Source of the DNA: Microbacterium sp. Yaish 1
GTDB taxonomy: Bacteria; Actinomycetota; Actinomycetes; Actinomycetales; Microbacteriaceae
Direction: 5' to 3'
Assembly: GCF_002245215.1 (NCBI RefSeq)
Contig: NZ_NPMR01000001.1
Location: 930,001-994,000, forward strand
Length of the DNA: 64,000 nt
This document shows, piece by piece, positions 6,333-28,494 of this stretch. The number at the start of each line of letters is the position of its first letter. Positions within the stretch are counted from its first letter, which is position 1. The position numbers and the translations under genes were made by a program. The notes beneath the pieces were generated by a model that saw only the letters and a program-made list of their open reading frames with translations, had not been told where the DNA came from and searched no databases.

Positions 6333-6415
6333 CCGCGATGCAAGACATCCGCCCCGACACCCCGGCCCGGATGCCGCATCCTCGGCGCGTCGCACACGAT
6401 CCCTTGCATCCGCGC
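6333..6415 (+). repeat. 83-bp dispersed repeat, copy 2
   Basis: Direct copy of 4703-4785 with two substitutions and the same GATGCAAG/CTTGCATC ends. It lies between the PadR promoter and the 3' end of the LuxR-type gene. The two copies therefore flank exactly the PadR-membrane protein operon. Confidence 0.85.
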
Positions 6416-6432
6416 CCGCGTCCGCGCCCACG

Positions 6433-6457
6433 CCCGACCCGACCCGACCCGACCCGA
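6433..6457. repeat. Pentanucleotide tandem repeat (CCCGA)x5
   Basis: Five exact CCCGA units end three bases before the stop codon of the minus-strand LuxR-type gene. The repeat is non-coding and directly downstream of that gene. Confidence 0.9.
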
Positions 6458-6460
6458 GCG

Positions 6461-8158: not shown

Positions 8159-8179
8159 CCGCCGCCCTTCTGTCGGCGT

Positions 8180-9217
8180 TCAGTCTGCCATCTGCGGCGG
8201 GCTCTCCCGCGTCTCGGAGGGCGCCACGCGATCGAGCCCGGCAAGGGTCGCTTCGTGCTGCGCGATCTCGGCGGCCATCCGCCCGTGCTCGTTGGGCCCG
8301 AGGTGGCTGAGGGGCGAGTGGTAGATGCGCGACGCGTCGTCGGCGGGACAACCGAGCAGAGCGGCCAGCCGTTCGACGATCTCGGCGTCCGATTCGGCGT
8401 CGGCGACGACCTCGGCGATCGCCACGAGCGAGGGGCGCGCCGCCCGCGCCGCCCGGGCAGCGGCGATGCGCTCGGTCAGCATGCGGCGCGTCGCCGCGCG
8501 CCCTCGCCGGGAGTCGCGCCGCGGTGTGCGGGCCCGTCCGAGCTCGATCCGTTCGCGGGTGAGCTCGATCCGGAGCGGCTCGGGATGCAGCCCGAGCCCC
8601 GGGGAGTGCGCGTGCAGCCAGACCGTCCCCGGCTCGAGCTCGTGCCAGATGTCTCTCGACAGGCCCACCGCGACCCGCGCGTAGTCGCCGGGCTCGAGGG
8701 GCACGGCGGCCGGGGTGCCGGAGAGCATGTAGCCGAAGCTGTAGCTCTCGTCGCGTGCGCGGGTGAAGGCGCCCATCGTCTGGAAGTCGTCGCCGGTCGG
8801 CATCCACCGCTCCGTGCCGGTGTTGACGATGTCGACGGCGAAGTCGGTCGCCGTCTCGTCGGCGGCGACGATGCTCGGCCACCGCATGACGAGCCCCGCG
8901 CGCCGCTCGGCCGGGCTCGGCCGCAGGGGAATCGGTTCGTCGTGCAGATGCAGCCCGCGCTCCGGCGTCGCGGGATATCCCTGCCCGGCGAACCACATCC
9001 CCTCGCGCGCGGGGTCGGGCGCCCCGACGAAGGCGGCGCCGTCTGCCTGCCGCAGCACGCGCCAGCCGTCGGCGGGCACATCGGCCGCGTCGGTATACGG
9101 GTCGAGCTGCAGGCCGAGCGAGGTCAACAGCTCCTCGAGCGTCACTCCCGCCTCGGCGAGCGCCGCGGGGTCGACCGGCGAGGAACCGAGCTGGGGCAGA
9201 TCATCCGTGGGGTTCAT
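8180..9217 (-). CDS. Uncharacterised protein with beta-sandwich-like middle and helical C-terminus
   Basis: 345-residue soluble protein; family not recognised. Residues ~50-225 are strand-rich with motifs such as FAVDIVNTGTERWMPTGDDF and YARVAVGLSRDIWHELEPG, reading like an Ig-like or jelly-roll module. Residues ~235-280 are very basic and helical (ARTPRRDSRRGRAATRR). The final 60 residues (EIVERLAALLGCPADDASRI, then PLSHLGPNEHGRMAAEIAQH) recall the helical segment of GyrA/ParC-type proteins that precedes the exit gate, an impression rather than an assignment. The ATG at 9217 is preferred over longer upstream frames. It probably forms an operon with the LuxR-type regulator 22 bases downstream. 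Confidence 0.7.
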   Translation of the reverse strand: MNPTDDLPQLGSSPVDPAALAEAGVTLEELLTSLGLQLDPYTDAADVPADGWRVLRQADGAAFVGAPDPAREGMWFAGQGYPATPERGLHLHDEPIPLRPSPAERRAGLVMRWPSIVAADETATDFAVDIVNTGTERWMPTGDDFQTMGAFTRARDESYSFGYMLSGTPAAVPLEPGDYARVAVGLSRDIWHELEPGTVWLHAHSPGLGLHPEPLRIELTRERIELGRARTPRRDSRRGRAATRRMLTERIAAARAARAARPSLVAIAEVVADAESDAEIVERLAALLGCPADDASRIYHSPLSHLGPNEHGRMAAEIAQHEATLAGLDRVAPSETRESPPQMAD

Positions 9218-9267
9218 CCCGCCATGCTCGCAGGCGCCATGCCGCCATGCCCAGCCCGTCGGGCGAA

Positions 9268-9309
9268 CGGGCGAAGGGCCGGGGACGCCACTCCCCGGCC
9301 CTTCGCCCG
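9268..9309 (-). terminator. Long hairpin terminator of the GH121-like gene
   Basis: Two perfect 17-bp arms (CGGGCGAAGGGCCGGGG and its complement) enclose an 8-base loop. The hairpin starts 26 bases after the minus-strand stop codon at 9336. No clear T-run follows, which is common for actinobacterial terminators. Confidence 0.8.
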
Positions 9310-9335
9310 TGTCGCGCGGCGCGCTGGTCAGACCG

Positions 9336-12300
9336 TCAGGCGAGTCCTCGGCGGTGGCGACGGACGCCGGCGACCGCGAGCGCCAGTCCGAGCAGCAGCG
9401 CCAGAGCGCCCGCTCCAGCGAAGCTCGCGAGTCCGCCGGCATCCTGTCCCGTCGACGCGAGCGGCGGGTTCGCCGACGAGGTCGCGCCGGGAGTGACGAC
9501 CGTCACCTGCGCCGTCAGTTCGCCACCCGGCACGACGAGCGCGACGGTGTGGGTTCCGGCCTCGGCGTAAGCGGGCACCGTGAACACTCCGGATGCGGTT
9601 CCGTCGGCGCCCACCGTGAGGGTGCCCAGTCGTACCGGGGTCGACCGGAACTCGACCGCGAACACGGTCCCCGGCGCCGCACCCGAGACGCTCACCGGCA
9701 GCTGACCGCCCGGCGCGACCTGGCTCACCCCGACGCGCAGCACCTCGGCTCCGGTCAGCGAACCGCTCGGCTCCGAACCCGGTCCGCCGGCGCCGGGGCC
9801 GCCCGCGCCCGGCCCACCGGTTCCCGGCTCGCCCGTGCCCGGGCCGCCGGTGCCCGGATCGACCGCCTTGGCCGGGATCTCGGCCGTCACGACGTCCGAG
9901 ACGTTGCCGGCGACGTCGGTCGCGCGCACCCGCACCGTCGTGGCGGAGTCGCCGACGGCGACAGCGCCGCTCGCCGCCGTCCACGTCCCGTCGCCGAGGC
10001 GGTACTCGACGAGCGCGATGCCGGAATGAGCGTCGCTGCCGCTCGGGGCGATGGTGCGGGCACGATCGTCCCACCCGGTGCTCGCCTCCGGCAAGGCGGC
10101 GTCGCGCCGCACTTCGACGGCGACCTCGTCCGACGCATGGCCGGCGGCATCCGTCGCGCGGAACCGCACCGTCGTCGCACCGTCCGCGTCCACGACCACG
10201 GGAGCCGTGTACGCACCCCAGTCGCCGTCGCCGACCCGCACCTCGAGAGCCGGGGCCGCATCGCGGTCGTCGATGGCGGTCGCCGACACGCTCGGCGACG
10301 CGACGTACCAGCCGCTGGCCGGTGCCGCCGGAGCGACGGCCGCGGTCACGACCGGAGCCTGCGTGTCGGGGACGACCGTCTCGGGCTGCTCCCACACCTG
10401 CCACTCCTTGATGCCGACGCTGCCCTTGCCCTGCTCGGTTCCGACCGGGGTGAGGTTCAGCCGCAGGCGCGTCGTGGTGACGGGGTCGAACTCGACGGTG
10501 TTGAAGGCGTCGGTCGCCGTGCCGTACGCGCCGGTGGCCGTCACGGGTACCCAGGCCTCGGTCTCGGCATCCCAGTACTCCGCTTGCCAGTCCTCGGGCA
10601 CCTCGATGCCGAGTCCCTGCGCGTCGAGGTTCGAGACGAAGTACACCCCGACCGAGCCGACCCGCACCTCCTCGGACCAGTCGTACTGCACCCATTGCGG
10701 CCCCACCTGCGGCCAGACACCCCAGACGTTCGCGTTGTCGCTCGGGGTGACATCGCCCGACGACGTCGGCTGCACGTCGTCGTTCAGCCCGGCGACCGTG
10801 TTCCACGCAGCCGTTCCGGATGCCGTGGGCGTGGCCAGCAGCGCCAGGTTGCGCCGCTGGGTGCCGTCGGCCTCGGGCACGACCCGCTCGATCGTCTCCG
10901 AGACGTTGCCCGCGGCATCCGTCGCCCGCAGCTCGACGCGCGTCTCGTCGAGGCCGACCAGCACACTGCGGGTCAGCGGCGCCCAGTCCTCCTCGTCGCC
11001 GAGGCGGTACTCGATCGAGGCGACGCCCGAGCCGGCATCGGTCGCACTCGCCTTCACGGTGCGCGACACGGCGTCGGCGACCGCCTCGAGGGCGGGAGCG
11101 GTCGTATCGATGCGCACGGGCTGCGCTGCGGCCTCGGAGGTGTTGCCCGCGGCATCCGTCGCCCGCGCCTGCATCGTGTGGTCGCCCTCCGCCGAGACCG
11201 TCACGGGCTCGGTGTAGGTCGCCCACGCCCCCTCGTCGACGCGCACCTCGATGCGCGGCGCCGAGTCGCGGTCGTCGGTCGCCCCGACGGTGACGGTGAC
11301 GTCCTCCCGGTGCCACCCCGATGCGGGCGCAGCGGGCGCGACCTCGAAGGTGATGCTCGGTGCCGTCGTGTCGGCGGCGCCTTCGCCCACGGTCACCGCC
11401 GCCGAAGCCGCCGTGGTGCCGGGCAGGTCGGTCTGCACCGTGCCGCCGACGGTGAACTGACCGGGCTCGGCATACGACGCCGCGTCCACCGCGTCCCACG
11501 TGACCGGCAGGTCTTCGCGCGATCCGTCGTTGTAGAGCACGCCCACTGTCGCCGGGAGGGCCGGAGCGACCTCCGGCAGCGTCCGCACTGCCACCGGGTC
11601 GACCAGGTTGATCTGCCCGGGCGGGGTGGCCCGGACCCACACCGTCGCCTTCGCCGCGACGGGCGAACCCGGGACGATGCCCGACAGCGCGAAGCTGCCT
11701 TCGCCGGCGACCTGCGCGTCGGTGACGGCGGGCCACGCGACGGAGAGGTCTGCCGCGCTGCCGTCGCCGAAGGTCGCGCTCACCGTCTCGGGAAGCTGCG
11801 GCAGCGTGCCCACCGTCGTGCGGATGTCGATCGGCTCGATGGCCACCGGCGCGTCGGCGAAGACGGCCAGCTCGCTGACGGCGACCGCTGCTCGCGCCGA
11901 GCCCGTGCCCGCCGCCTCGAGCACGACCCGCAGGCGCGTCGTGGTCACGGCGTCGAAGGTGACGGCGTTCGAGGCGTCCCGGGCGATCCCGTACTCCGAG
12001 GCTCCGGTGACGTCGGCCCACGCCGACCCGGTCCAGTACTGCGCCTTCCAGGCCCGGGGGACGTTGACGCCACTCGTCGAACCGGCATCCGCCTGGTCGC
12101 GCCAGAAGCTGATCTCCGCTCCCGCGATGCGCTGCGGCGTCGACCATTCGTACTGCAGCCAGCGTGTGGCCGGGTGGTTGCCCGACCAGGTTCCCCAGAT
12201 GTCGCTCTGGGCCCCGCCGGTGAAGAGCACCTTGCCGTCGTTGACAGCGCGCACGTTGTTCCACGACGCGGTGTACTCGGCGGTGGGCACCGCGGCGGGT

Positions 12301-15300
12301 GCGATGTTCACGCCGGCGCCGGCGGGCGCTCCCTGCACGGCGACGTCGGCGAAGGACGTCTTCTCGCCGTCGGACGCGGTCAGGCGCAGCACGTACGCAC
12401 CCTCGGTCGAGAACCGGGCCGTCGTGGTGGCGGCGGTCGCGTCGTCAAAGAGCACGGTGGCTCCCTCCGGCGCGCTCTCGACGGTCCACTGCGCGGTGAG
12501 GTCACCGCCGGGCAGGCCGTCGTCCTTGACGGTTCCGATCAGGGCCGCAGCCCCGCCCGCCGACGCCTGCCGGTTCTCCCAGGCCGTCACGAGGGGCGCC
12601 TGGTTCGTCGACTCGGGCGCCGGAAGACCCGTGCGGAAGACCTGCAGCTCCTTCACGCCGGTCTTCGCGCCGGCGGCGTGGGCGACGGTCAGTCGCACCG
12701 CGTCGCCGGTGACCTCGGGGAACTGGATGCGGTTGTAGTTGGCTCGCGGGTACGCGGGTGTCCGCGCCTGCGACGGGATCATCGTCCACTCGCCGTTCCG
12801 CCGCACCTCGAGGGTGTACACCGAGGGCTCGGCGTATCCGGGCACGGTGGCCGACGACGAGCTGTCGTAGAAGTACACGCGCGCGTCGTCGAACGTCTGC
12901 TCACCGTCGAGCTCGACCGTCAGGGCGTCGATCGGGTTCGGAGAGCCCGCCGTGCCCCAGAAGGGCTCGTTGATCGTGGTGCCGTTGACCGCGCCGGCGG
13001 GTTCGCGACCCGGTGCCGAGAACGTCGCCGACGCGGATGCCGCCAGGTTGGGGCTGCCCGTGCTGGCGGTCTGGATGTCGGCGCCGGCCTTGGCGAAGAG
13101 GTCGACCACGCGCGCGTCGTCGGCGAAGCGCACCTCCTGCGGCGTCTGCACGGCGGAGGAGGTCGCCGTCACGACCGATGCATCGCCGTCGACGATCTCG
13201 ACCGAGCCGGTGGCGGGGTCGTAGACGACGTGGGCGAGGTCGTCGACCGTGAAGGCCAGCTCGCCGTCGAGGAACACCGAGTACCCCTCGGGCACGCTGT
13301 CGCCGTAGTGCCGCTCGCCGCCCGGCTGATCCCATGTCACGGTGAGGTCGCGGTCGCGGTAGCGGATGTTGTTGGCCGTGAAGTGGTCCCAGCCGATCGC
13401 GATCGGGTCGAGCTCGATCTTGGCGTCGCTGCGGGTGCGCACGCCCATCGCGTCCTCGATCATCGTGAAGTTCGTCGCCCCGAGGATCGTGTGGTGGATC
13501 CACGAGCGGTAGTCGATCGTCTGCGGATCGGCCGATCCGTTGGCCCAGAACTCGTTCTGGTCGGGCAGGCGGTTGTCGCCGCCGTTCTGGTAGTGCGCCC
13601 AGGCGTTCCAGTACAGGAGCTTCTTGTACCACTCGGCGTCGATCGCGTCGGTGGGGTACTCGCGCAGCACGGTGCTCAGCATCCGGAACATCACGGTCGA
13701 GTTGATGACCGAGAAGTTGTTGCTGCCCTGACCGCCGGTCGCCGCGTAAGCGGCCTGGTCGGCCTGGTTCGCGGTGTAGAAGGGGAAGATCGGGTACTGC
13801 TCGTCGTCGGCGAAGAGCCGCAGCGCCTCGACGTAGTCGTCGTCGTAGTCGCTGTCACCGGGCTTCGGGACGAGGCCGACGGTGAACGGGTAGTAGTTGT
13901 TGATCTCCTTCCAGGGCACGTGCTCGCCATCGCTGGCCATCGCGTGCTCGAGGAGCTTGCGCTCGGGGTTCCACAGCACGTCCATGACCTGGGTCTTGAT
14001 GTTCTGAGCGAAGGCCTCCATCTCATCGGCCTTGGCGGTGTCGCCGGCGACACGGTACGCCTCGGCTGCGGCGAGCGCGTTGGAGTACAGGTAGGCGTTC
14101 TCGGCGCGGTCCTGGTAGCCGCCCTTCCAGTGGAACGACACCGCGTCGGCGTCGTTTCCGGTCATCGCGCCCCAGTTGTACTCGATGAGCCCGTTGCCGT
14201 TGTTGTCGTAGGCGTCGACGAGGCCCTTCACGTCGTACTCGGCGTACTCGGCGAGGTTCTGCGCGATCGCGGTCGGGCCGCCGTGAAGCTCGTAGGCACG
14301 CCAGGCCGCCTCGGAGATGTACTGCGTGTAGCTGTTCGACCAGTTGGCCGGGTCGCCGGGATTGTCGACGAACTTGTAGCTCTTGCTCGTCTCGCCCGCC
14401 GACACCCACGGCCCGTACGAGTAGATCGGGTCGCGGAAGTACTTGAGGTCGTCGATGAACATGCCCGTGGTGAGCACGATCGAGTTGTTGTACCCGAGCA
14501 CGCCCTCCATCGCCGTGGGGAACTGGTAGGTGTTGCCCGGCATGTCGGCGTCGAGGAAGTTGTAACGCATCAGCCACCAGCGGTAGTAGAGCGTCTTGTC
14601 GATGTTGTCTTCGGGGGTGTCGAGGTACGGCACGTTGTCGGCCCACCACCGGTTGTAGGCGGTGACGTGCGCCGTGTACGCCTCACCGGGCGTCTGTGCG
14701 CGCAGCGCGTCGTAGTCGGTGCGCGAGGCGGCGATCTCGTCGGTGACGAGCGCCAGCTGCACCTTCGTCGAGACCGATCCCCCGGGCGCGACGCTGAGCG
14801 TCCGACTCAGCGTCTCGCCCGCGGGGACGAAGCCGTCACCCGAGAGGCGCGGCGTGAGCTTGGTCAGGTCGTTGAGCGCGGCGACGTGGCCGGTCAGCTC
14901 GTCGCCCTCGGCCGTCGTGGCGTACGGCGACGAGACGACCAGCTCGATGTCGACGGCACCTCCGGTGGCGCGGACGTCGAGGTTCGTCACGAGGACGTTC
15001 GCATCGGTGATGAACTTCGTCTGCACGACCTCGATGCCGGCGGCCGCGTTGCGGTGCACGCTGCGCCAGTAACTCGGGGTCTGCTTCCGCTGCGCGGTGT
15101 CTTCGGTGAGGGGGATGTCGGAGCCGCCGACCCGCGCGGTGATCGTGTAGCCGCCGCGACCGTCGATCGACTCCCAGTAGGCCAGCTGCCCGCCGAAGCC
15201 GAGCACGGACGGGTCGTGCTCCTTCATGAAGGAGGCGCGGCCTCGGGTGAAGAGCCACTGGTTGTTGTCGCCGAAGCTGCCCGCGGTCCCGGTTCGGGCG

Positions 15301-15575
15301 AGCATCTCGTCCATCCAGAAGTCGTTGTCGGGGCTGCTGCCGGCGCCGGCCGCGACGTCGCCGTCGAAGATGCGCAGCAGCTGGTTGCCCGGCGTATAGG
15401 TCACACCGGTGTCGGGTACGGGGTCGGGGCTCCCGGTGAAGGTCGGGTAGCCGATGTCGGTGTTGGCGGCGTGCGCCGGGGCGACCGCGAAGGTCGCCGC
15501 GAGCACGGCCGAGACCGCCGCTGTGGCGATCGCGGTTCGCCCGATGCGACGCGAGGTCGTCGGAGTGCAGTCCAC
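9336..15575 (-). CDS. Secreted, wall-anchored GH121-like beta-L-arabinobiosidase
   Basis: 2079-residue extracellular enzyme. A signal peptide (residues 1-36, ending APAHA) precedes an (alpha/alpha)6-barrel catalytic region (about 40-830). Then come a discoidin/F5-8C-like domain (~840-980), a PKD-like segment, a second discoidin-like domain (~1090-1240), two Big_4 Ig-like domains (~1245-1390), OmpL47-type repeats, a third discoidin-like domain (~1575-1730), more repeats, a Gly-Pro linker (~1907-1935), and LASTG at 2039-2043 followed by a membrane helix and Arg tail: a sortase E type anchor. Candidate catalytic acids are E357, D489 and E675; from memory these match the order and E-to-D spacing of the three acids in Bifidobacterium HypBA2 (GH121). 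GAGAGGAA precedes the GTG start. The nearby ABC genes and GH127 support release of beta-L-arabinobiose from plant glycoproteins. A GH63/MGH1-like activity is the main alternative. Confidence 0.82.
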   Translation of the reverse strand: MDCTPTTSRRIGRTAIATAAVSAVLAATFAVAPAHAANTDIGYPTFTGSPDPVPDTGVTYTPGNQLLRIFDGDVAAGAGSSPDNDFWMDEMLARTGTAGSFGDNNQWLFTRGRASFMKEHDPSVLGFGGQLAYWESIDGRGGYTITARVGGSDIPLTEDTAQRKQTPSYWRSVHRNAAAGIEVVQTKFITDANVLVTNLDVRATGGAVDIELVVSSPYATTAEGDELTGHVAALNDLTKLTPRLSGDGFVPAGETLSRTLSVAPGGSVSTKVQLALVTDEIAASRTDYDALRAQTPGEAYTAHVTAYNRWWADNVPYLDTPEDNIDKTLYYRWWLMRYNFLDADMPGNTYQFPTAMEGVLGYNNSIVLTTGMFIDDLKYFRDPIYSYGPWVSAGETSKSYKFVDNPGDPANWSNSYTQYISEAAWRAYELHGGPTAIAQNLAEYAEYDVKGLVDAYDNNGNGLIEYNWGAMTGNDADAVSFHWKGGYQDRAENAYLYSNALAAAEAYRVAGDTAKADEMEAFAQNIKTQVMDVLWNPERKLLEHAMASDGEHVPWKEINNYYPFTVGLVPKPGDSDYDDDYVEALRLFADDEQYPIFPFYTANQADQAAYAATGGQGSNNFSVINSTVMFRMLSTVLREYPTDAIDAEWYKKLLYWNAWAHYQNGGDNRLPDQNEFWANGSADPQTIDYRSWIHHTILGATNFTMIEDAMGVRTRSDAKIELDPIAIGWDHFTANNIRYRDRDLTVTWDQPGGERHYGDSVPEGYSVFLDGELAFTVDDLAHVVYDPATGSVEIVDGDASVVTATSSAVQTPQEVRFADDARVVDLFAKAGADIQTASTGSPNLAASASATFSAPGREPAGAVNGTTINEPFWGTAGSPNPIDALTVELDGEQTFDDARVYFYDSSSSATVPGYAEPSVYTLEVRRNGEWTMIPSQARTPAYPRANYNRIQFPEVTGDAVRLTVAHAAGAKTGVKELQVFRTGLPAPESTNQAPLVTAWENRQASAGGAAALIGTVKDDGLPGGDLTAQWTVESAPEGATVLFDDATAATTTARFSTEGAYVLRLTASDGEKTSFADVAVQGAPAGAGVNIAPAAVPTAEYTASWNNVRAVNDGKVLFTGGAQSDIWGTWSGNHPATRWLQYEWSTPQRIAGAEISFWRDQADAGSTSGVNVPRAWKAQYWTGSAWADVTGASEYGIARDASNAVTFDAVTTTRLRVVLEAAGTGSARAAVAVSELAVFADAPVAIEPIDIRTTVGTLPQLPETVSATFGDGSAADLSVAWPAVTDAQVAGEGSFALSGIVPGSPVAAKATVWVRATPPGQINLVDPVAVRTLPEVAPALPATVGVLYNDGSREDLPVTWDAVDAASYAEPGQFTVGGTVQTDLPGTTAASAAVTVGEGAADTTAPSITFEVAPAAPASGWHREDVTVTVGATDDRDSAPRIEVRVDEGAWATYTEPVTVSAEGDHTMQARATDAAGNTSEAAAQPVRIDTTAPALEAVADAVSRTVKASATDAGSGVASIEYRLGDEEDWAPLTRSVLVGLDETRVELRATDAAGNVSETIERVVPEADGTQRRNLALLATPTASGTAAWNTVAGLNDDVQPTSSGDVTPSDNANVWGVWPQVGPQWVQYDWSEEVRVGSVGVYFVSNLDAQGLGIEVPEDWQAEYWDAETEAWVPVTATGAYGTATDAFNTVEFDPVTTTRLRLNLTPVGTEQGKGSVGIKEWQVWEQPETVVPDTQAPVVTAAVAPAAPASGWYVASPSVSATAIDDRDAAPALEVRVGDGDWGAYTAPVVVDADGATTVRFRATDAAGHASDEVAVEVRRDAALPEASTGWDDRARTIAPSGSDAHSGIALVEYRLGDGTWTAASGAVAVGDSATTVRVRATDVAGNVSDVVTAEIPAKAVDPGTGGPGTGEPGTGGPGAGGPGAGGPGSEPSGSLTGAEVLRVGVSQVAPGGQLPVSVSGAAPGTVFAVEFRSTPVRLGTLTVGADGTASGVFTVPAYAEAGTHTVALVVPGGELTAQVTVVTPGATSSANPPLASTGQDAGGLASFAGAGALALLLGLALAVAGVRRHRRGLA

Positions 15576-15653
15576 GGTGTCTGTTCCTCTCGGCGCCGCT
15601 CACCGATGAGCGACGCGTGCATGGCAGGCACGCTACCGAGGGCCCGAGATTCT

Positions 15654-15670
15654 CCGCAATCCTTTTCGGG
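15654..15670 (-). promoter_or_regulatory. Operator upstream of GH121-like gene
   Basis: On the minus strand this 17-mer reads CCCGAAAAGGATTGCGG and matches the site at 16796-16812 in 15 of 17 positions. It lies 79 bases before the GH121-like start. The neighbouring TTTCGGTTG is also shared by the two promoters. Confidence 0.7.
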
Positions 15671-15708
15671 CTTTTCGCTCTCAACCGAAAACCGGGAGCC
15701 TACGCCGG

Positions 15709-16731
15709 TCAGCGGTGCGCGATCGTCGATCCGCGGATGACGAGGCGCACAGGCAGCTGGTGCGTCCCCGACTCGGCACTCACGCCGTCGATGGCCTCGA
15801 ACAGACGCTGCGCCGCCTGGCGACCCAGCTGCTGCAGGTTCGCGTCGATGCTCGTGAGGGGCGGGCGGGCGTTCGCGGCGACGATCTCCCAGTTGTCGTA
15901 GCCGATCACGGCGAGATCGCCGGGCACGTCGCGACCGAAATCGCGCGCGGTGTCGAGCACGCCGCGGGCGATCTGGTCGGAGCCGCAGAAGACGGCGTCG
16001 ATGTCGGGATGCCGCTCCAGCAGCATCGCGGCGGCATCCCGGCCCCAGTGCTCGGTCCACGCCGCGAAGAGCGGCTCGCCGACGAAGTCGAGGCCGGCGT
16101 CGGCGAGCGCCGCCCGGGCACCCGCGACGCGGTCTTGCGCAGCGGCGTAGGTCGGGTCGCCCGAGATGTGGGCGATGCGGGTGCGGCCGCACGAGAGCAG
16201 ATGCTCGATCGCGAGGCGTCCGCCCGCGTGATTGTCGGGCGTGAGCGAGACATCGCGGGGGTCGTCCGACGGCGAGTAGGCGTAGACCACGGGCACCGGC
16301 AGCTCCTGGCCGAGCGATGGCCGGGGGTCGGTCTGACGCCCCACGACGATGATGCCGTCGACGCGCCGGCTGAGGAGGGCGCGCAGGTGATGCTGCTCGC
16401 GGATGGCGTCGCCGCGGGCGTCGCAGAGGAAGACGTTCACCTGGCCCGCGCCGAAGGCGTCTTCGGCGCCCATGAGGATCGGCAGCACGAAACGGCCCTC
16501 GAGGTCGCTCGTGAGCAGTCCGACGGTGCCGGTCCGGCCCGCCAGGAGGCCGCGGGCCATCGCGTTCGGCGTGAAGGTGAGCTCCTCCGCGGCGGCCATC
16601 ACGCGGCGGCGCGTGCTGGGCGCCACGTCGCCGCGTCCGTTCAGGGCTTTGGATGCCGTCGCGATCGACACCCCCGCACGCTGGGCGACGTCGCTGAGGG
16701 TGGCGGCGCGGGCCGGGTCGGTCGAGGGCAT
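15709..16731 (-). CDS. LacI-family regulator of the arabinofuranoside locus
   Basis: 340-residue repressor. The LacI helix-turn-helix is at residues ~9-35 (ATLSDVAQRAGVSIATASKA, then LNGRGDVAPSTRRRV), followed by the hinge (FTPNAMARGLLAGRTGTVGL) and a periplasmic-binding-protein-like sugar domain ending in VIGYDNWEIV. The ATG at 16731 is taken because GGAG lies upstream and the N-terminus then has normal length; an in-frame ATG at 16749 is possible. It sits between the divergent transporter operon and the co-directional GH121-like gene, and a 17-bp motif occurs in front of both. It probably releases DNA on binding L-arabinose or an arabino-oligosaccharide. Confidence 0.92.
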   Translation of the reverse strand: MPSTDPARAATLSDVAQRAGVSIATASKALNGRGDVAPSTRRRVMAAAEELTFTPNAMARGLLAGRTGTVGLLTSDLEGRFVLPILMGAEDAFGAGQVNVFLCDARGDAIREQHHLRALLSRRVDGIIVVGRQTDPRPSLGQELPVPVVYAYSPSDDPRDVSLTPDNHAGGRLAIEHLLSCGRTRIAHISGDPTYAAAQDRVAGARAALADAGLDFVGEPLFAAWTEHWGRDAAAMLLERHPDIDAVFCGSDQIARGVLDTARDFGRDVPGDLAVIGYDNWEIVAANARPPLTSIDANLQQLGRQAAQRLFEAIDGVSAESGTHQLPVRLVIRGSTIAHR

Positions 16732-16766
16732 CCTGATCCGTTTCTCCATCGTTATCCGAGGGCGTC

Positions 16767-16812
16767 TTGACGACGGCCTAGACACACGTTACCTTCCCGA
16801 AAGGGATTTCGG
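16767..16812 (+). promoter_or_regulatory. Promoter and LacI operator of the transporter operon
   Basis: TTGACG (16767-16772), a 17-base spacer and TACCTT (16790-16795) form a sigma-70-type promoter. Directly downstream, CCGAAA-GGGA-TTTCGG (16797-16812) is a perfect palindrome that would cover the transcription start. The 17-mer 16796-16812 recurs upstream of the GH121-like gene. Confidence 0.75.
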
Positions 16813-16890
16813 TTGTTTCGAATCCCTCCCACACCGGCGGTGCCCGCCCGAACGGCGCAGCCGCTCAATGAAGAGCAAGAGGAGACTGCA

Positions 16891-18192
16891 ATGACCCCAT
16901 TCCGGCGCCGCCCGGCGTTCCGGGCCGCGACCGCCGCGCTCGTCGCCGGCGTCCTCGTCGGCGGCCTCGCCGCGTGTTCGAACAGCGGCGGCGGCGACAC
17001 CGCTGCCCCGGCCGACATCCCCGCCGCGGGAACCGACGACGGCACGACGCTGACCCTGTGGACGCGCGCACCGCTCGAGCGTCAGGCGAAGCTGCTCGTC
17101 GAGGCGTACAACGCCAGCCACGAGAACCAGGTCGAGCTGACCGTCGTCCCCAACGACGACTACGTCGCCAAGGTCGGGGCCGCCGCCGGCTCGGGAGGGC
17201 TCCCCGACCTGTTCGCCGCCGACATCGTCTACGTGCCGAACTGGGTAGAGCAGGGCCTCTTCCAGGACATCTCCGCGCAGATCGACGGCCTCGACTACAA
17301 GGACGACATCAACGCCGGGCACCTCTCCGCCGGAACGGTCGACGGCAAGGAGCACGTGCTGCCGTTCGTGCTCGACCTGTCGATGCTGATGTGGAACAAG
17401 GAGCTCTTCGCCGAGGCCGGCCTCGACCCCGACAAGGCCCCCGCGACGCTGTCGGAGTTCGCCGACGCGGCCACGGCCGTGCAGAACTTGAACAAGCCGG
17501 GCGTCTCGGGCACCTCGACGGGCCTGAACTGCGGTGGATGCCTCGTCTTCACGTGGTTCCCCTCGGTGTGGGCATCGGGAGAGCAGGTCCTGAGCGAAGA
17601 CGGCACCGAGTCGCTCCTCGCGGGTGACGCCGCGCAGGAGGTCTACAAGACCTGGAAGGGCCTCGAGGATGCCGGCGCTGTGGCCCCCGGCTCGGCCGAC
17701 GAGACCGGCGCCACGTGGGTCGCAGGCTTCCAGGAGGGCAAGGTCGGCGTCATGCCGTTCCCGGCCACCCTGCTGTCGGGTCTCGACTTCGAGGCCGGCG
17801 TCGCCGGCATCCCGGGTGTCGACGGCGGCGCCTCGACGTTCGTCGGCGGTGACGGCATCGGCATCTCGAAGGACTCGAAGCAGTCGGCGCAGGCATGGAA
17901 CTTCCTGTCGTGGCTGATGTCGGAGGACGCTCAGGTCGAGGTTCTCGCGAAGGACGGCAACGCCGTCTCGCGCGGTGACCTCGCCGAGAACAGCTACGCC
18001 GCGGCCGACCCGCGTCAGGTGACGATCAACCAGGTCGCCGCCGAGGGTCAGACGCCCGTCGCCCTCAACTTCCAGCAGGCGTTCAACGCTCCGGGCAGCC
18101 CCTGGCTGACCCTCGTGCGCAACGCGGTGCTCGAAGGCACGTCGACGGTCGACGCCGACAACGACGAGATCACGGCGATCCTCGGTCAGTGA
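16891..18192 (+). CDS. ABC transporter solute-binding lipoprotein, arabino-oligosaccharide type
   Basis: 433-residue extracellular sugar-binding lipoprotein of the carbohydrate-uptake-1 class. Its signal ends in a lipobox (VLVGGLAACS), so the mature protein would be lipid-anchored at Cys. The body has the family-1 fold signatures LTLWTRAPLERQAKLLVEAY, PDLFAADIVYVPNWVEQG and WNFLSWLMSEDAQVE. AGAGGAGA precedes the ATG at 16891. It is the first gene of the operon, behind a LacI-controlled promoter and ahead of two permeases and GH127. This order matches the Bifidobacterium longum hypBA region as I recall it, so the ligand is probably beta-L-arabinobiose. No ATPase gene is present; such importers usually share a genomic MsmK/MalK-type ATPase. 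Confidence 0.9.
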   Translation: MTPFRRRPAFRAATAALVAGVLVGGLAACSNSGGGDTAAPADIPAAGTDDGTTLTLWTRAPLERQAKLLVEAYNASHENQVELTVVPNDDYVAKVGAAAGSGGLPDLFAADIVYVPNWVEQGLFQDISAQIDGLDYKDDINAGHLSAGTVDGKEHVLPFVLDLSMLMWNKELFAEAGLDPDKAPATLSEFADAATAVQNLNKPGVSGTSTGLNCGGCLVFTWFPSVWASGEQVLSEDGTESLLAGDAAQEVYKTWKGLEDAGAVAPGSADETGATWVAGFQEGKVGVMPFPATLLSGLDFEAGVAGIPGVDGGASTFVGGDGIGISKDSKQSAQAWNFLSWLMSEDAQVEVLAKDGNAVSRGDLAENSYAAADPRQVTINQVAAEGQTPVALNFQQAFNAPGSPWLTLVRNAVLEGTSTVDADNDEITAILGQ

Positions 18193-18199
18193 TACCCCC

Positions 18200-18228
18200 G
18201 GGGGCGCCGTCGCATCGGCGGCGCCCCC
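18200..18228 (+). terminator. Intercistronic hairpin after the binding-protein gene
   Basis: GGGGGCGCCG and CGGCGCCCCC are perfect 10-bp arms around a 9-base loop, between the binding-protein stop and the first permease. Such hairpins usually act as partial terminators or stabilise the upstream mRNA, giving more binding protein than permease. Confidence 0.75.
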
Positions 18229-18247
18229 ACCCTCCGAAAGGAATGTC

Positions 18248-19156
18248 GTGGCACTCTCCGTCACTTCCACGCGGCGCCCGCGCTACCGGCGCACGGCGCT
18301 GGGCGGGCCGCTGCAGGGCTGGCTGTACGCCGCCCCGACGGCACTGTTCGTCATCGCGCTCTTCCTCATCCCCCTCGTGCTGGTGCTGCAGATGTCCGGC
18401 TCGGACTGGCCGCTGCTGCGCGGCAACATGGGGCCGAACTTCCCGAACAACTTCGCCGAGGCGCTCGACCACCGGCTGTTCTGGGACTCGGTGCGGTTCA
18501 CCCTGATCTACACCGCGATCACGACCGTGCTGCTGATCGGCCTGGGTCTCGGGCTCGCCCTGCTCGTGCAGGAGTCGACCGCCTGGAAGGGCTTCCTCCG
18601 CACGGCGTTCCTGCTGCCGAGCGCCCTGGGTCTCGCCTCGGCATCCCTCCTCTTCTACGTGCTTTACTCCCCCATCGCCGGTCCCTTCGCGGGGCTGATG
18701 GAATCGTGGGGCATCACGTTCTTGGGCACGCCTGAAGGCGCCCTATGGTCGACGGTGTTCCTCATCGTCTGGCGGTACGCGGGCTTCTACATGCTGCTGC
18801 TGCTCGTGGGCCTGCAGGGCATCCCGGAGGACGTCTACGAGGCCGCCCGCATCGACGGCGCGTCGCGCTGGCAGATCTTCCGCGACATCACCGTGCCGCT
18901 GCTGCGGCCGACCTTCGCGCTGACGACCGTCATGTGCGTCACCGGCTCGCTGCTGGCGTTCGACCAGTTCTACATCCTGACCAAGGGCGGACCCGACAAC
19001 AGCACGATGACCGTCGTGCAGCTCATCTACAACATCGCGTTCCAGGGGCAGAACAACCTCGGTGTCGCCGCAGCGCTGTCGGTCATCATCCTGCTGGCCC
19101 TGGTCGTCATCAACGTCGTGCAGCTGCGCGCGTTCCGTCGCCCCGAGGAGGCCTGA
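18248..19156 (+). CDS. ABC sugar transporter permease, MalF-like
   Basis: 302-residue inner-membrane permease with six predicted helices. The first lies at residues ~25-50 (YAAPTALFVIALFLIPLVLV). The EAA loop that docks the ATPase is clear: EAARIDGASRWQIFRDITVP (residues ~199-218). GAAAGGA lies upstream of the GTG start at 18248. It is followed one base later by the second permease, forming the heterodimeric channel for the binding protein encoded at 16891. The substrate is inferred from the locus, not from this sequence. Confidence 0.92.
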   Translation: MALSVTSTRRPRYRRTALGGPLQGWLYAAPTALFVIALFLIPLVLVLQMSGSDWPLLRGNMGPNFPNNFAEALDHRLFWDSVRFTLIYTAITTVLLIGLGLGLALLVQESTAWKGFLRTAFLLPSALGLASASLLFYVLYSPIAGPFAGLMESWGITFLGTPEGALWSTVFLIVWRYAGFYMLLLLVGLQGIPEDVYEAARIDGASRWQIFRDITVPLLRPTFALTTVMCVTGSLLAFDQFYILTKGGPDNSTMTVVQLIYNIAFQGQNNLGVAAALSVIILLALVVINVVQLRAFRRPEEA

Positions 19157-19157
19157 C

Positions 19158-20081
19158 ATGGCTCTGACCGACGCTCCGGCCGGCTCCGTCCCGCCCGCCG
19201 CTCCCGACACCACGCGCACGATCGTCATCCCGAAGTCCCGGCCGCGCACGCGCCGCCGCCCCACGGGGCGCCTGCTGTGGGGCATCCCGTCGACCGTGTT
19301 CACGGGGGCGCTGGCGATCATCTTCCTGTACCCGCTCGTGTGGACCGGAGTCGCCTCGGTGAGCCCGCAGGCGGGCACGAGCCAGTCCGACGGCTGGGGG
19401 TTCGGCAACTACGTCACCCTCGCCAACTTCCAGTCGGGCATCTGGGTCTACCTCGGCAACTCGCTCTTCGTCTCGCTGCTGACCGTCACGCTGACGCTGC
19501 TGACCTCGTTCCTCGGCGGGTACGCGTTCGCGCGCTTCCACTTCCCCGGCAAGAACATGCTGTTCCTGCTCGTGCTGGCGATCCTCATGGTGCCGTACGC
19601 GACGCTGCTCATTCCGCTGTACGTCATCCTGAACGCCGTCGGCCTGCAGAACTCGCTCGTCGGGGTCGCGCTGGTGCTGACGATGTTCCAGCTGCCGTTC
19701 TCGATGTTCATGATGCGCATCTCGTTCGAGTCGGTGCCGCGCGAGCTCGACGAGGCCGCGCTGGTCGACGGATGCACGAGCCTCACCGCCCTGTGGCGCG
19801 TGCTGCTTCCCGCCGTCAAGCCCGGCCTCATCACGGTGGGTCTGTTCGCGTTCCTCACCGCGTGGAACGACTTCATCGCGCCGCTCATCCTCATCAACGA
19901 CACCTCGCGCATCACGCTGCCCCTCGCGGTGGCGAACCTGCGCGGCCAGACGATGGGCGTCATCGACTACGGCGTCACCGAAGCCGGTGTCGTCGTGCTC
20001 GCACTGCCGTGCATCGTGCTCTTCCTGATCCTTCAACGCCACTACGTGCGCGGCTTCATGTCGGGCGCATTCAAGGGATGA
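19158..20081 (+). CDS. ABC sugar transporter permease, MalG-like
   Basis: 307-residue inner-membrane permease. A 40-residue soluble N-terminus rich in Pro and Arg precedes six helices. The EAA loop reads ELDEAALVDGCTSLTALWRV (residues ~195-214). The C-terminal half has the conserved MalG-type WNDFIAPLILI segment. The ATG at 19158 follows the upstream stop by one base, and AGGAGGCC lies before it. It pairs with the MalF-like permease. Its stop overlaps an ATG of the GH127 frame, so translation of the operon is tightly coupled. Confidence 0.92.
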   Translation: MALTDAPAGSVPPAAPDTTRTIVIPKSRPRTRRRPTGRLLWGIPSTVFTGALAIIFLYPLVWTGVASVSPQAGTSQSDGWGFGNYVTLANFQSGIWVYLGNSLFVSLLTVTLTLLTSFLGGYAFARFHFPGKNMLFLLVLAILMVPYATLLIPLYVILNAVGLQNSLVGVALVLTMFQLPFSMFMMRISFESVPRELDEAALVDGCTSLTALWRVLLPAVKPGLITVGLFAFLTAWNDFIAPLILINDTSRITLPLAVANLRGQTMGVIDYGVTEAGVVVLALPCIVLFLILQRHYVRGFMSGAFKG

Positions 20082-20083
20082 CC

Positions 20084-22048
20084 ATGTCGACTACCTTCCC
20101 CGCACGCTCCATCGGCTCCGCGGCATCCGCCGTCGCCGCTGCTCCCGTCGTGCCCGCTCATTCGCGGCTGCGTCCGCTCGGCCTGCACGAGGTGCGCATC
20201 ACCGGAGGCTTCTGGGGCGAGCGCCAGCGCATCAATGCCGCTCACACCCTCGGCCACGTGCTCGGTCGCCTCGAGTCGGAGGGCTGGCTGCCCAACTTCG
20301 ATCGCGCCGCCGCCGGCACGCTGCCCGCCGGACGCCGCGGGCGCGAGTTCTCCGACTCGGAGGTCTACAAGTACCTCGAGGCCGCCGCCTGGGAGATCGG
20401 CCGCAGCGACGACGCCGAGCTCGAGGCGACGCTGCGCTCGGTCGTCGCCCGGGTCGCCGCCGCTCAGGAGCCCGACGGCTACCTCAACACCCGGTTCGGC
20501 CGCCCGGGCCAGCAGCCGCGCTGGTCCGACCTCGAGTGGGGGCACGAGCTGTACTGCCTCGGTCACCTGTTCCAGGCGGCCGTCGCCCGCGAGCGCACGC
20601 GCCCGGGAGCGGATGACGGCCTGCTCGGCATCGCCCGACGTGCCGCCGACCTCGTGTGCGAGGTCTTCGGGCCGACCGGCATCCCGGCCTTCTGCGGGCA
20701 TCCCGAGGTCGAGACCGCACTGGCCGAGCTCGCCCGCGTGACCGGTGACGAGCGCTACCGCGCACAGGCGGAGCTGTTCGTCGAGCGTCGCGGACACGAG
20801 ACGCTCCGCGACATCGAGTTCGGGCGCACCTACTTCCAGGACGACGTGCCCGTCCGCGACGCCGACGCCCTCGCGGGGCACGCCGTCCGCGCGAACTATC
20901 TCGCCGCGGGGGCGGTCGACGTCGCCGTCGACGCAGGTGATGTCGAGCTGCTCAGCGCCCTGCGACACCAGTGGGCCCGCACCCGCGGCCGCCGCACCTA
21001 CATCACCGGCGGTCAGGGGTCGCACCACCAGGACGAGGCGTTCGGCGACGACTGGGAACTGCCGCCGGACCGCGCCTACTCCGAGACGTGCGCGGGCATC
21101 GCGTCGATCATGTTCTCGTGGCGGCTGCTGCTCGCCGAGGGGGATGCCGCGTACGCCGACCTCATCGAGCGCACGCTTTACAACGTTGTAGCCACGTCGC
21201 CCGCGGCCGACGGCCGCAGCTTCTTCTACGCGAACACGCTGCACCAGCGCGTACCGGGCGTCGAGGCGGACCCCGAGGGCACGTCGCCGCGCGCGTCGTC
21301 GTCGCTGCGAGCGCCGTGGTTCGAGGTCTCGTGCTGCCCGCCCAACGTGGCGCGCACGCTCGCGAGCCTCGACGCCTACGTGGCGACCGCCGACGACGAG
21401 GGCGTGCAGCTGCACCAGTACGCGCCCTCGGAGATCCGCACGGCCCTCCCCGACGGCCGGGCTGTGTCGCTCGACGTGCAGACGGCGTACCCCGCCGACG
21501 GTGTCGTGCGGGTGGTGGTCAGTGAGGATGCCGGCGGCGCGTGGACTCTGTCGCTGCGGGTGCCCGAGTGGGCCGAGGGCGCGCGCCTGCGCGTTCTGGA
21601 TGCCGCGGGCACTATCATCGACGACGATGCCACCGGCCCGGGCCGCGTTGAGGTGCGCCGCGACTTCCGCGCCGGCGAGGCCGTCGAGCTCGAGCTGCCG
21701 ATGGCGCCGCGCCTCGTCGCTCCCGATGCGCGTATCGACGCCGTGCGCGGTTGCGTCGCCGTCGAGCGAGGCCCCGAGGTACTCGCGCTCGAATCGACCG
21801 ATCTGCCGGGCGGTGCCGACGTCGGTCGGGCGGCGATCGCGGGCGACGCCGAGCCGGTCGAGCGCGACGGTCGCGTGTGGCTGCGGGTCGGGCTGCGCCC
21901 CGATGAAAGCGATGGATGGCCATATGGCAATCCATCGGCGAGCGCCTCCGCCGCCGCCGAAGAGGCCGAGCTGGTCCCCCTTGTGGCCTATCACGACTGG
22001 GCCAACCGCGGCCCGTCGACGATGCGGGTCTGGCTGCCCGTCGAGTGA
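20084..22048 (+). CDS. GH127 beta-L-arabinofuranosidase (HypBA1-like)
   Basis: 654-residue cytoplasmic glycoside hydrolase with no signal peptide. It should hydrolyse imported beta-L-arabinobiose to L-arabinose. The family GH127 active site is intact: E334 and C336 in YSETCAGI and the pair C417-C418 in VSCCPPNVAR. These correspond to the zinc-binding Glu and three Cys of Bifidobacterium HypBA1, where one Cys is the nucleophile. The (alpha/alpha)6 barrel fills residues ~40-440 and beta-sandwich domains follow. AAGGG lies upstream of the ATG at 20084; an ATG at 20078 overlaps the permease stop and is the alternative. It is the last gene of the LacI-controlled operon and is followed by a strong hairpin. 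Confidence 0.93.
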   Translation: MSTTFPARSIGSAASAVAAAPVVPAHSRLRPLGLHEVRITGGFWGERQRINAAHTLGHVLGRLESEGWLPNFDRAAAGTLPAGRRGREFSDSEVYKYLEAAAWEIGRSDDAELEATLRSVVARVAAAQEPDGYLNTRFGRPGQQPRWSDLEWGHELYCLGHLFQAAVARERTRPGADDGLLGIARRAADLVCEVFGPTGIPAFCGHPEVETALAELARVTGDERYRAQAELFVERRGHETLRDIEFGRTYFQDDVPVRDADALAGHAVRANYLAAGAVDVAVDAGDVELLSALRHQWARTRGRRTYITGGQGSHHQDEAFGDDWELPPDRAYSETCAGIASIMFSWRLLLAEGDAAYADLIERTLYNVVATSPAADGRSFFYANTLHQRVPGVEADPEGTSPRASSSLRAPWFEVSCCPPNVARTLASLDAYVATADDEGVQLHQYAPSEIRTALPDGRAVSLDVQTAYPADGVVRVVVSEDAGGAWTLSLRVPEWAEGARLRVLDAAGTIIDDDATGPGRVEVRRDFRAGEAVELELPMAPRLVAPDARIDAVRGCVAVERGPEVLALESTDLPGGADVGRAAIAGDAEPVERDGRVWLRVGLRPDESDGWPYGNPSASASAAAEEAELVPLVAYHDWANRGPSTMRVWLPVE

Positions 22049-22095: not shown

Positions 22096-22134
22096 CCCTC
22101 GGTATGGTGCGGGCACGTCGCACCATACCGAGGG
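22096..22134. repeat. Perfect 16-bp inverted repeat before lipoprotein gene
   Basis: CCCTCGGTATGGTGCG and its exact complement enclose the loop GGCACGT. The right arm ends in GAGGG, which continues into the GGGAGAAG ribosome binding site of the lipoprotein gene at 22144. It could be a second terminator, an RNA hairpin that masks that site, or an operator. Confidence 0.85.
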
Positions 22135-22143
22135 AGAAGCAAC

Positions 22144-23598
22144 GTGGCCGAGACTCCTGAACGGGCCGGTGGCGCGCTGCGACCGACCGCCGGCGCGGCT
22201 CTTCTGGCGATCGCGGGACTGCTCATCGCGGGGTGCACCGGCACCCCCGACGCCGAGGCGTTCGCGCCGCGCTGGGAGACCACGTTCGACGTGGCGACCC
22301 GGGTCGTCGCATCCGACGACGGCGTCGTCGTCGTCGCATCCGACGAGGGGCAGATGCTCGCGGCGCTGAACACGAGGAACGGCGGCACGCGGTGGAGCCT
22401 GCCGTTCACGCCGCCCCCGTCGGCCGTCACGGTTCGCGGGGATGTCGTCACCGTGCAGCAGCAGCTCGAGACCGGCGTTCAGGTCTCCGCGGTGAGCGCG
22501 TCGACCGGCAACGCGATGTGGACGCGCACCGCCAACGGCGGGTCGGTCATCGGCGCGTTCTCCGACGGGCGGGTCGCTGCCGTACGGGATGACGCGGTCT
22601 CGATCTCGGATGTCGCCAACGTCCGCACCGCCGATCCGTGGATGCCGCGAGAGTCGTGCTCGGTCGGGTCGGCCCACCTCTCGCCGGGCAAAGACCCGTG
22701 GCTGGCCGTCCTCGAGGTCTGCGACGACGACCCCTCGCATCTCGTCCGTTTGGACGATTCCCTCCGGGAGGTTTGGCGCACGCCGGCAGCCACCGCCGCC
22801 CGGTTCGACTTCGTCGACGGGCTCATCGCTGCAACCGACGATGCCGCGAGCGATGATGCCGCGACGAACGAGGCCGCGAACCTATGGCTCGTCGGCGACG
22901 ACGGGTCTGTCGTGCAGGCACTCGCGGGATTCATCCCGCCCGGGGCGGCCGTGGTGCACCGCACCGCCGAAGACGACATCGTCGCGGTCACGGGGTCGGG
23001 CGAGCTGCATCCCGCCGGCTACCTGCGCGCGCAGAACACACCCGACCTCGGGGTCGTCACGGTCACCCGCGTCGGCGACGGCCCCGACGCGACGCTCGCC
23101 ACGGTCGTCGGAGTCGACGGCGAGCTCACGCCGTTGAAGGGCGACAACTATGTGCTCGCGCGCCAGGTCGGCGACACGACCGTCCTTACCCTGTGGCGGT
23201 GGCAGGAGAGCGGCACGCTGCCCGACGACATCCCTTCGTGGCCCGACACCTTCGACGTCGACGCCGGTTCCGCCGGGCGCCTGACGGCCACCGCGACCGG
23301 CGAGCCCGGCGACCTCGGCTTCGACCTCACCCGCGACGGCGCCCGGTTCGCGACGGTGCGCCTGGTGACGCTCGCGTCCGCCGCGTCGGCGCGCGCGGCG
23401 TTCGAGCTGACGGCATCCGCCGAGGCCTCAGCGGATGCCGCGACCACGGTCCACCGCGACGACGGCACGCTCACCGCGGTGAGCGGTTCGTGCCTGCTGG
23501 CCTTGCACCTCGAGACGGGCCCCCTCGCCGCCGCTGACGAGAAGAGCCTCGTCGACGCGATCTTCAGCGCCGAGACATCGGGAGCCTGCGAGGCGTAA
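22144..23598 (+). CDS. Putative PQQ-like beta-propeller lipoprotein
   Basis: 484-residue exported protein of unknown function. The N-terminal signal ends in a lipobox (LLIAGC), so it should be lipid-anchored on the outer face of the membrane. The body repeats short strands with GxVxxV patterns (for example VVASDDGVVVVASDEGQMLA, then ALNTRNGGTRWSLPF and SASTGNAMWTR), typical of PQQ-like beta-propeller blades. No PQQ-binding or catalytic motif is evident, so a scaffold or binding role is more likely than enzyme activity. GGGAGAAG precedes the GTG start, and the right arm of a perfect inverted repeat overlaps that site. It is unlikely to belong to the GH127 operon because a terminator hairpin intervenes. 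Confidence 0.78.
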   Translation: MAETPERAGGALRPTAGAALLAIAGLLIAGCTGTPDAEAFAPRWETTFDVATRVVASDDGVVVVASDEGQMLAALNTRNGGTRWSLPFTPPPSAVTVRGDVVTVQQQLETGVQVSAVSASTGNAMWTRTANGGSVIGAFSDGRVAAVRDDAVSISDVANVRTADPWMPRESCSVGSAHLSPGKDPWLAVLEVCDDDPSHLVRLDDSLREVWRTPAATAARFDFVDGLIAATDDAASDDAATNEAANLWLVGDDGSVVQALAGFIPPGAAVVHRTAEDDIVAVTGSGELHPAGYLRAQNTPDLGVVTVTRVGDGPDATLATVVGVDGELTPLKGDNYVLARQVGDTTVLTLWRWQESGTLPDDIPSWPDTFDVDAGSAGRLTATATGEPGDLGFDLTRDGARFATVRLVTLASAASARAAFELTASAEASADAATTVHRDDGTLTAVSGSCLLALHLETGPLAAADEKSLVDAIFSAETSGACEA

Positions 23599-26690: not shown

Positions 26691-26981
26691 CGGCAAACAC
26701 TCCACGAGGATACGAATTCCGAGGTCCGTTTGACAGCAGCACCAACCCAGGCAGGCTTCCTGTCAGCCACAGGGCTGATCGCTGCAATGCCCAAAATTGG
26801 GCGATCCGTGTCGACCATCTACTCTAAGACCGCCAGAAGGAGACCCGCAAATAGACGAAACCGGCAAATGATCCGTACGCGTCCGCCACGCCGACCGGCT
26901 GATGTGGTGACGCTCACAACCCGCGTCAAAACTCGCGAGCTTGCCAGACTTCGAGTGCGACGAGGACCCCAGATACGACAT
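26691..26981. other. Gene-free gap inside the polysaccharide island
   Basis: 291 bases between two minus-strand genes. No frame has a convincing start, ribosome binding site or family similarity. The minus strand carries short hydrophobic stretches broken by stops, so a decayed membrane-protein gene is possible but not demonstrated. GC is lower than in the flanking core genome. Confidence 0.4.
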
Positions 26982-28229: not shown

Positions 28230-28494
28230 CTCAGCTGACTCGCTTCTGTCTCGGACCTGCTAGCAAAGAAGGGGATAGCACCCGGGTACGGCGCCCGTGC
28301 GTGATGCATTACCCTCGCGCGTCAGCCTCGCTATGGGGATGGACTCGAATGGTCTAACGGAGTCGCCTGATGGCGCTATCCCAGCCTACCGGGCTTGTCT
28401 AGTCGGTGGGAACGGCGCGGGACGGGTTCGATCCGTTCAGCCAGAACGACTAGCTGACATGCCAGATGTCCGAAGACGAGTTGCTCCCCGACCT
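28230..28494. other. Gene-free gap inside the polysaccharide island
   Basis: 265 bases between two minus-strand genes with no supported reading frame. A tRNA T-arm-like hairpin at 28421-28437 has no accompanying acceptor or anticodon arm. The gap probably holds the promoter for the flippase and its downstream glycosyltransferase. Confidence 0.4.

Follow-up and report, generated by a model that had tools for sequence, protein, structure and literature searches.

A candidate beta-L-arabino-oligosaccharide locus with a LacI-family regulator and a putative shared operator in Microbacterium sp. Yaish 1

Genes and putative operators of the locus

We analyzed a 64-kb window of the Microbacterium sp. 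Yaish 1 genome (the window, below, is always this whole stretch), in which one locus encodes a GH121 glycoside hydrolase (GH), a LacI-family regulator, a solute-binding protein (SBP), two permeases of an ATP-binding cassette (ABC) transporter, and a GH127 cysteine glycosidase. A preliminary description had reported such a cluster, and our scan of open reading frames (ORFs) and Pfam domains confirmed all six genes at their place, with matches far beyond chance. The locus also carries two copies of a putative LacI-type operator (Table 1).

Table 1. Features of the locus, in window coordinates
Feature	Position	Strand	Evidence and remarks
GH121 beta-L-arabinobiosidase homologue	9336..15575	-	2079 aa; NF041578, PDB 6m5a, Pfam, residue mapping
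Putative LacI-type operator CCGAAAAGGATTGCGG	15654..15669	-	Ahead of GH121, 78 bases from its start codon
LacI-family regulator	15709..16785	-	PF00356 and PF13377; start uncertain, perhaps the ATG at 16749 or at 16731
Putative LacI-type operator CCGAAAGGGATTTCGG	16797..16812	+	Palindrome with perfect arms; between LacI and SBP; motif scans
ABC-transporter solute-binding lipoprotein (SBP)	16891..18192	+	6lce match, 53% identity; lipobox by eye
ABC permease A (BPD_transp_1)	18248..19156	+	PF00528
ABC permease B	about 19182..20081	+	PF00528; open frame from 19062, true start near 19182
GH127 cysteine glycosidase	about 20084..22048	+	654 aa; PF07944 (266 bits), GH127 middle and C-terminal domains

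The two enzymes and the binding protein

The large enzyme scored 1312 bits against the HypBA2 model of NCBIfam (NF041578) and 751 bits against the HypBA2 crystal chain 6m5a (residues 36-834, 51% identity), while the next PDB match across the catalytic region, 5mqr, reached 59 bits and is a GH142 enzyme (PMC7263609). HypBA2 numbering of the 6m5a chain was tied to the residues given in PMC7263609 and checked via P437, G438, and W443. In this alignment, the essential acids E383, D515, and E713 of HypBA2 correspond to E357, D475, and E675, and P437, G438, and W443 to P406, G407, and W412, so that six of six GH121 residues are kept and the GH121-like identity proposed in the preliminary description holds. 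The three acids are described as fully conserved, their mutants being inactive or very weak (PMC7263609). The acids had earlier been placed at 357, 489, and 675; E357 and E675 were right, but the aspartate is D475 and not residue 489.

In addition to its catalytic region (about residues 36-834), the protein has F5/8-C and Big_4 domains and OmpL47-type repeats. By eye, it begins with an N-terminal signal peptide and ends with LASTG, a hydrophobic segment, and RRHRR. LAxTG is a motif typically recognized by the class E sortases of actinobacteria, and a single sortase match was found in the genome; the wall anchor claimed earlier fits the sequence as judged by eye from these termini. The idea that the tail is a recent fusion with the tail of a lost GH43 was dropped after a tail comparison, in which residues 1400-2079 were 57-72% identical to seven tails of the same lineage and 29-43% identical to GH43 tails. 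GH121 tails outside this lineage are also only 28-38% identical, so the comparison argues against a recent fusion only. As a separate observation, no GH43 adjoins the long, L-x-x-TG-anchored GH121s (the window's and those of loci L026, L028, and L029), and a GH43 adjoins the shorter unanchored GH121s of L027, L030, L031, and L032.

The best clue to the cargo of the transporter is the similarity of its SBP to the Bifidobacterium longum beta-L-arabinobiose-binding protein 6lce (430 bits, 53.4% identity over 399 residues; next solved chain, 98 bits). The B. longum protein is reported to bind exclusively beta-L-arabinobiose, the disaccharide of two arabinofuranose (Araf) units written Araf-beta1,2-Araf or beta-Ara2 (PMC8106489). 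Compared with three Bifidobacterium loci, permease A is 55-58% identical, permease B is 54-55% identical, and LacI is 47-48% identical.

For the GH127 enzyme, the residues E334, C336, C417, and C418 named in the preliminary description proved exactly right with the start at 20084. They correspond to E338, C340, C417, and C418 of HypBA1, and the acid/base E318 corresponds to HypBA1 E322. In total, nine HypBA1 active-site residues are kept (H142, Y145, H194, R273, E322, E338, C340, C417, and C418; roles taken from PMC8106489, PMC10728902, and PMC10850190), and the PF07944 catalytic, middle, and C-terminal domains are all present. The enzyme, in which no signal peptide is evident by eye, is probably cytoplasmic. 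Two more PF07944 proteins are encoded on contig 1 of the same genome (L041:9088-10911 and L042:7954-10713); for one the best PDB match is 5opj, which is GH146-like, and the other lacks three of the four HypBA1 binding residues.

We built two GH127 trees, the first without three wrong-frame rows (L096, L144, and L151) and 11 near-duplicates, the second from 17 hand-picked rows; 6ex6 forms a long branch. The GH127s of the soil actinobacterial modules, the window's among them, form a branch of their own, and Geobacillus 4qjy and Dyella fall together with HypBA1 and the copies from the bifidobacterial loci. Forcing HypBA1 together with the soil branch, a group chosen after the first tree had been seen, was 18 log units worse, with a P value of 0.005 in the approximately unbiased (AU) test. 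The trees and the AU test led us to reject the GH127 enzyme as a HypBA1 orthologue. Against the three bifidobacterial loci, GH127 is only 32-34% identical, whereas identity is 47-58% for LacI, SBP, and permeases and 45-47% for GH121. Because the identity of GH127 falls so far below that of the rest of the locus, the intracellular hydrolase has probably been exchanged within its family in one of the two groups, the window type or the bifidobacterial one.

Putative operator and distribution of the locus

The putative operator has the consensus CCGAAA-N4-TT(T/G)CGG and precedes both the transporter and GH121. In its degenerate form, YCGAAANNNNTTKCGR, it occurs in the 3.4-Mb genome at these two places only, and the backward control pattern has 0 matches; with at most one mismatch, the window contains four strand matches versus 0.34 expected. 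In 58 distinct LacI-SBP gaps, defined by a LacI at least 55% identical to ours, which excludes all bifidobacterial gaps, it was found 58 times at up to two mismatches, 51 times at up to one, and 17 times exactly; mononucleotide shuffles of these gaps averaged 0.38 (up to two) and 0.02 (up to one). The motif was first picked by eye in the window's two gaps, post hoc, and the related sequences in these counts are not independent of each other. Three bifidobacterial LacI-SBP gaps were scanned: the operator is absent from two, and the third (L096) has one match with two mismatches.

Upstream of GH121, the operator is present in 32 of 91 regions at up to one mismatch and in 41 at up to two (shuffles, 0.1 and 2.1), a set that may hold a few repeated genomes. 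We then split the loci by layout. Flanks that were short or identical were excluded, as were the loci of Bifidobacterium (7) and of Xanthomonadales/Lysobacterales (16); two genomes (L029=L123, L028=L125) were counted twice. Where GH121 is placed directly behind GH127, only 3/23 loci carry the operator before it at up to two mismatches, whereas for GH121 genes standing apart from GH127, the numbers are 29/45 (up to one) and 38/45 (up to two). The operator thus precedes GH121 mainly where the gene likely has a promoter of its own.

A scan of a collection of 84,980 species yielded 401 stretches, of which 283 encode a relative, and the best 80 of these were kept. Synteny was scored within the fetched flanks at thresholds of 45% identity (30% for GH127), and some of the loci are cut by contig ends. 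The complete LacI-SBP-PermA-PermB-GH127 module is present in 3/7 Bifidobacterium loci (Bifidobacterium saguini, phasiani, and pullorum), 0/16 Xanthomonadales/Lysobacterales loci, and 29/57 other actinobacterial loci. The nearest locus among the best 80 of 283 is that of Microbacterium sp. AG238, with a GH121 of 96% identity.

Among 149 sampled Microbacterium genomes, the window's included, 10 carry a GH121 of the window's lineage (1172-1292 bits) and 6 carry one of a second lineage (408-566 bits), which is 36-37% identical to the window's. No sampled genome was found to have both, although at most three candidates were scored per genome and a second copy could be missed. All six GH121 residues are conserved in the second lineage, which adjoins the same import module and has the operator upstream in 6/6 loci at up to two mismatches. 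The open frames of its members (L035-L040) span 1572-1674 aa and show no evident wall anchor, and near them, in five of six loci, lies a further protein cluster whose scanned member (L040:3709-6168) has PF07944. A third lineage, about 51% identical to the window's, stands beside the module in three genomes from a different genus of this family and has the same six residues. In a sample of the whole family, with at most two candidates scored per genome, GH121 was found in 12/398 genomes and 6/85 genera.

The GH127 orthologue, taken as a full-length match of at least 66% (n=46), is present in 16/16 GH121-bearing Microbacterium genomes, on the same contig and within about 20 kb, and in 30/133 genomes without GH121 (Fisher's test, 8e-10, ignoring relatedness). 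Two partial matches (G023, 70%; G091, 62%) and six genomes at 54-59% were left out of the count. We fetched the loci of 16 of these 30 genomes (L073-L087 and L092), and LacI, SBP, and both permeases are present in all 16; araA, araB, or araD lies within the 20-kb stretch in 11 of them. None of these three genes occurs in the 15 GH121 stretches, which are centered on GH121 and not on the module.

Several neighboring frames were not counted as part of the locus. The plus-strand ORF 8763-15740 lies over GH121, antisense to the better frame, and the plus-strand ORF 6338-9496, likewise antisense to a better frame, has no Pfam or NCBIfam match. Downstream, the frame 22123-23598 was rejected as a further operon gene; it has one PQQ_2 match (31 bits, cut-off 27.6) and is followed by exopolysaccharide-type genes. 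That region (23862-33976) encodes a polyprenyl glycosylphosphotransferase and several glycosyltransferases, with a G+C content of 0.62-0.65, below that of most of the window.

Proposed pathway, alternatives, and known systems

What we observed at the locus comprises its gene content, protein families, conserved residues, synteny, and motif conservation, together with the presence of AraA and AraD in the genome. We hold it very probable that this is a LacI-controlled beta-L-arabino-oligosaccharide locus, with a proposed release, import, splitting, and control. We infer from sequence the substrate and the inducer, the way in which the sugar flows, the arrangement of the genes in operons, and repression, as well as the feeding of this Microbacterium on extensin sugars. 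In such a pathway, the wall-anchored GH121 would act outside the cell and clip beta-Ara2 from hydroxyproline (Hyp)-linked arabinose chains, the lipoprotein SBP would capture it, and the two permeases would import it with an ATPase encoded elsewhere. The cytoplasmic GH127 would then split beta-Ara2 to L-arabinose via a zinc-thiolate mechanism with a cysteine nucleophile, and the L-arabinose would be consumed by the AraA/AraD route; AraA is encoded on contig 2 of the genome, and AraD (L-ribulose-5-phosphate 4-epimerase, PRK06557, 373 bits) at 59992-60768 (minus strand) of the window, about 38 kb from the locus. A probably GH146-like enzyme, encoded at 322 kb on contig 1, may deal with the Araf-Hyp that is left. 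LacI would bind both operator copies, before the transporter and GH127 and before GH121, and the sugar or its product would release it. The BauR1 regulon of bifidobacteria offers a parallel with the same members (PMC5928203).

A number of results weigh against parts of this pathway. Among the GH121 genes standing apart, 7 of 45 have no operator even at two mismatches. The large enzyme stays below the equivalog cut-off of NF041578 (3200 bits, full-length), and we therefore file it as GH121 and not as HypBA2 itself. Its sole Pfam enzyme domain is an MGH1-like GH (7.6e-11, 43 bits), which touches the point on which the preliminary description would have given up GH121, namely a catalytic region scoring to GH63, an MGH1-like or another family and not to GH121. 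The match does not refute GH121, because the HypBA2 model and 6m5a match far better, and the six aligned GH121 residues contradict a GH63/MGH1-like enzyme, a reading that we find scarcely credible. For the GH127 enzyme, the nine active-site residues do not fix the specificity, since they are also kept in 6ex6 and 4qjy. These two are its best PDB matches (321 and 326 bits, respectively), ahead of HypBA1 (266), and its only NCBIfam match is the aceric acid hydrolase model NF049879, with 331 bits against a cut-off of 950. Considering also its place outside the HypBA1 branch and the other activities described in the family, namely the aceric acid hydrolase BT1003 and the DagA enzymes of carrageenan use (PMC5698469), the enzyme could be something other than a beta-L-arabinofuranosidase, and the operon could import something else. 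This seems to us quite improbable: 4qjy is itself named a GH127 beta-L-arabinofuranosidase, HypBA1 H142, Y145, H194, and R273 are kept whereas three of these four are missing from a distant paralogue encoded by the genome, and the enzyme is co-conserved with a beta-Ara2-type SBP, often near araBDA.

The source of the sugar bears on the reading in another way. No GH43 partner of the HypAA type, which would remove the cap, lies within the 64-kb window. With the GH43 beside GH121 in L036 (Microbacterium, second lineage) as the query, a GH43 of at least 45% identity was found within the fetched flanks of 33/57 other actinobacterial and 16/16 Xanthomonadales/Lysobacterales loci; the latter are, by position, of the XeHypAA type (PMC6085000). 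The best match in the Yaish 1 genome is a GH43 with a laminin-G domain, 37% identical to the query. Because the GH43s that lie close to GH121 in bifidobacteria also reach only 35-39% identity to this query, a working HypAA equivalent may exist elsewhere in the genome. Furthermore, with at most three candidates scored per genome, no GH121 was found in 30 of the 46 species that carry the GH127 orthologue. GH121 action in the same cell is thus not a necessary source of the imported sugar. The same import system and GH127 could therefore serve another plant glycan with beta-linked Araf, such as arabinogalactan-proteins or pectic side chains, and such linkages are reported from arabinogalactan-proteins, arabinan, and rhamnogalacturonan II (PMC10850190). 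We regard this alternative to extensin as unlikely, because the GH121 residues match those of HypBA2, whose known substrates are Hyp-linked arabinosides, and the SBP matches a binder of the beta1,2-disaccharide.

Among the titles and abstracts listed from the open-licence literature, none described this locus for Microbacterium. The pathway itself is already known; new are the putative operator, the soil GH127 branch, the second GH121 lineage beside the module in sister species, the species with the GH127 orthologue in which no GH121 was found, and the lack of a GH43 partner in the locus. Known mainly from work on gut bifidobacteria and Xanthomonas, the pathway is extended to actinobacteria of soil and plant surfaces. 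The locus offers an operator that can be tested and adds a second cysteine glycosidase branch, which probably performs the intracellular step. Modules that occur with either of two GH121 lineages or without any amount to a natural experiment on who releases and who scavenges wall-protein sugars. Tentatively, and with more doubt than confidence, we suggest a soil actinobacterial beta-arabinobiose regulon that has its own module and GH127 branch, one operator type, and swapped GH121 lineages, with many Microbacterium being importers only that scavenge the beta-Ara2 of their neighbors, a split of producers and scavengers on plant wall glycoproteins. The GH121 lineage of about 37% identity may differ in the linkage or aglycone that it attacks.

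The closest known system is the hypBA locus of B. longum JCM 1217 (BLLJ_0208-0213 plus LacI, BauR1 regulon), which has the same six components, with GH121 extracellular and GH127 intracellular as predicted for Microbacterium. Across the bifidobacterial loci and the B. longum PDB chains, LacI is 47-48%, SBP 48-53%, permeases 54-58%, and GH121 45-51% identical to the Microbacterium proteins. The preliminary description had recognized the B. longum hypBA gene set here, and the six genes and their synteny bear this out, but a GH127 of the HypBA1 branch and a HypAA-type GH43 are missing from the locus. The Microbacterium GH121 ends in a LASTG sorting signal, while B. longum HypBA2 has a FIVAR-transmembrane tail (PMC7263609); unlike Bifidobacterium, the Microbacterium locus has no GH43, its GH127 belongs to another branch, and its operator is absent from most of the three bifidobacterial gaps scanned. 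The trait had also been called one mostly studied in gut bacteria, which holds for gut bifidobacteria if Xanthomonas is set beside them; a confinement of GH121 to the gut does not stand, because a Xanthomonas GH121 is known (PMC6085000 and PMC7263609) and 283 candidate stretches in the species collection encode a relative.

In Xanthomonas euvesicatoria, likewise plant associated, the GH121 of xehypBA2-xehypAA/XeHypBA1 acts on Hyp-linked arabinosides (PMC6085000) and works with a GH43 and a further enzyme, given as GH127 in PMC6085000 and as GH146 in PMC10850190; in contrast to Microbacterium, none of the 16 Xanthomonadales/Lysobacterales loci has the LacI/ABC module. As for gene order, GH121 lies behind LacI in the window but directly behind GH127 in the loci of Herbiconiux, Plantibacter, Streptomyces, and Paractinoplanes, as it lies behind GH127 in Bifidobacterium, and such layouts rarely have the operator before GH121. 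The Herbiconiux, Plantibacter, Streptomyces, and Paractinoplanes loci share with Microbacterium the full module, the same GH127 branch, and the operator in the LacI-SBP gap.

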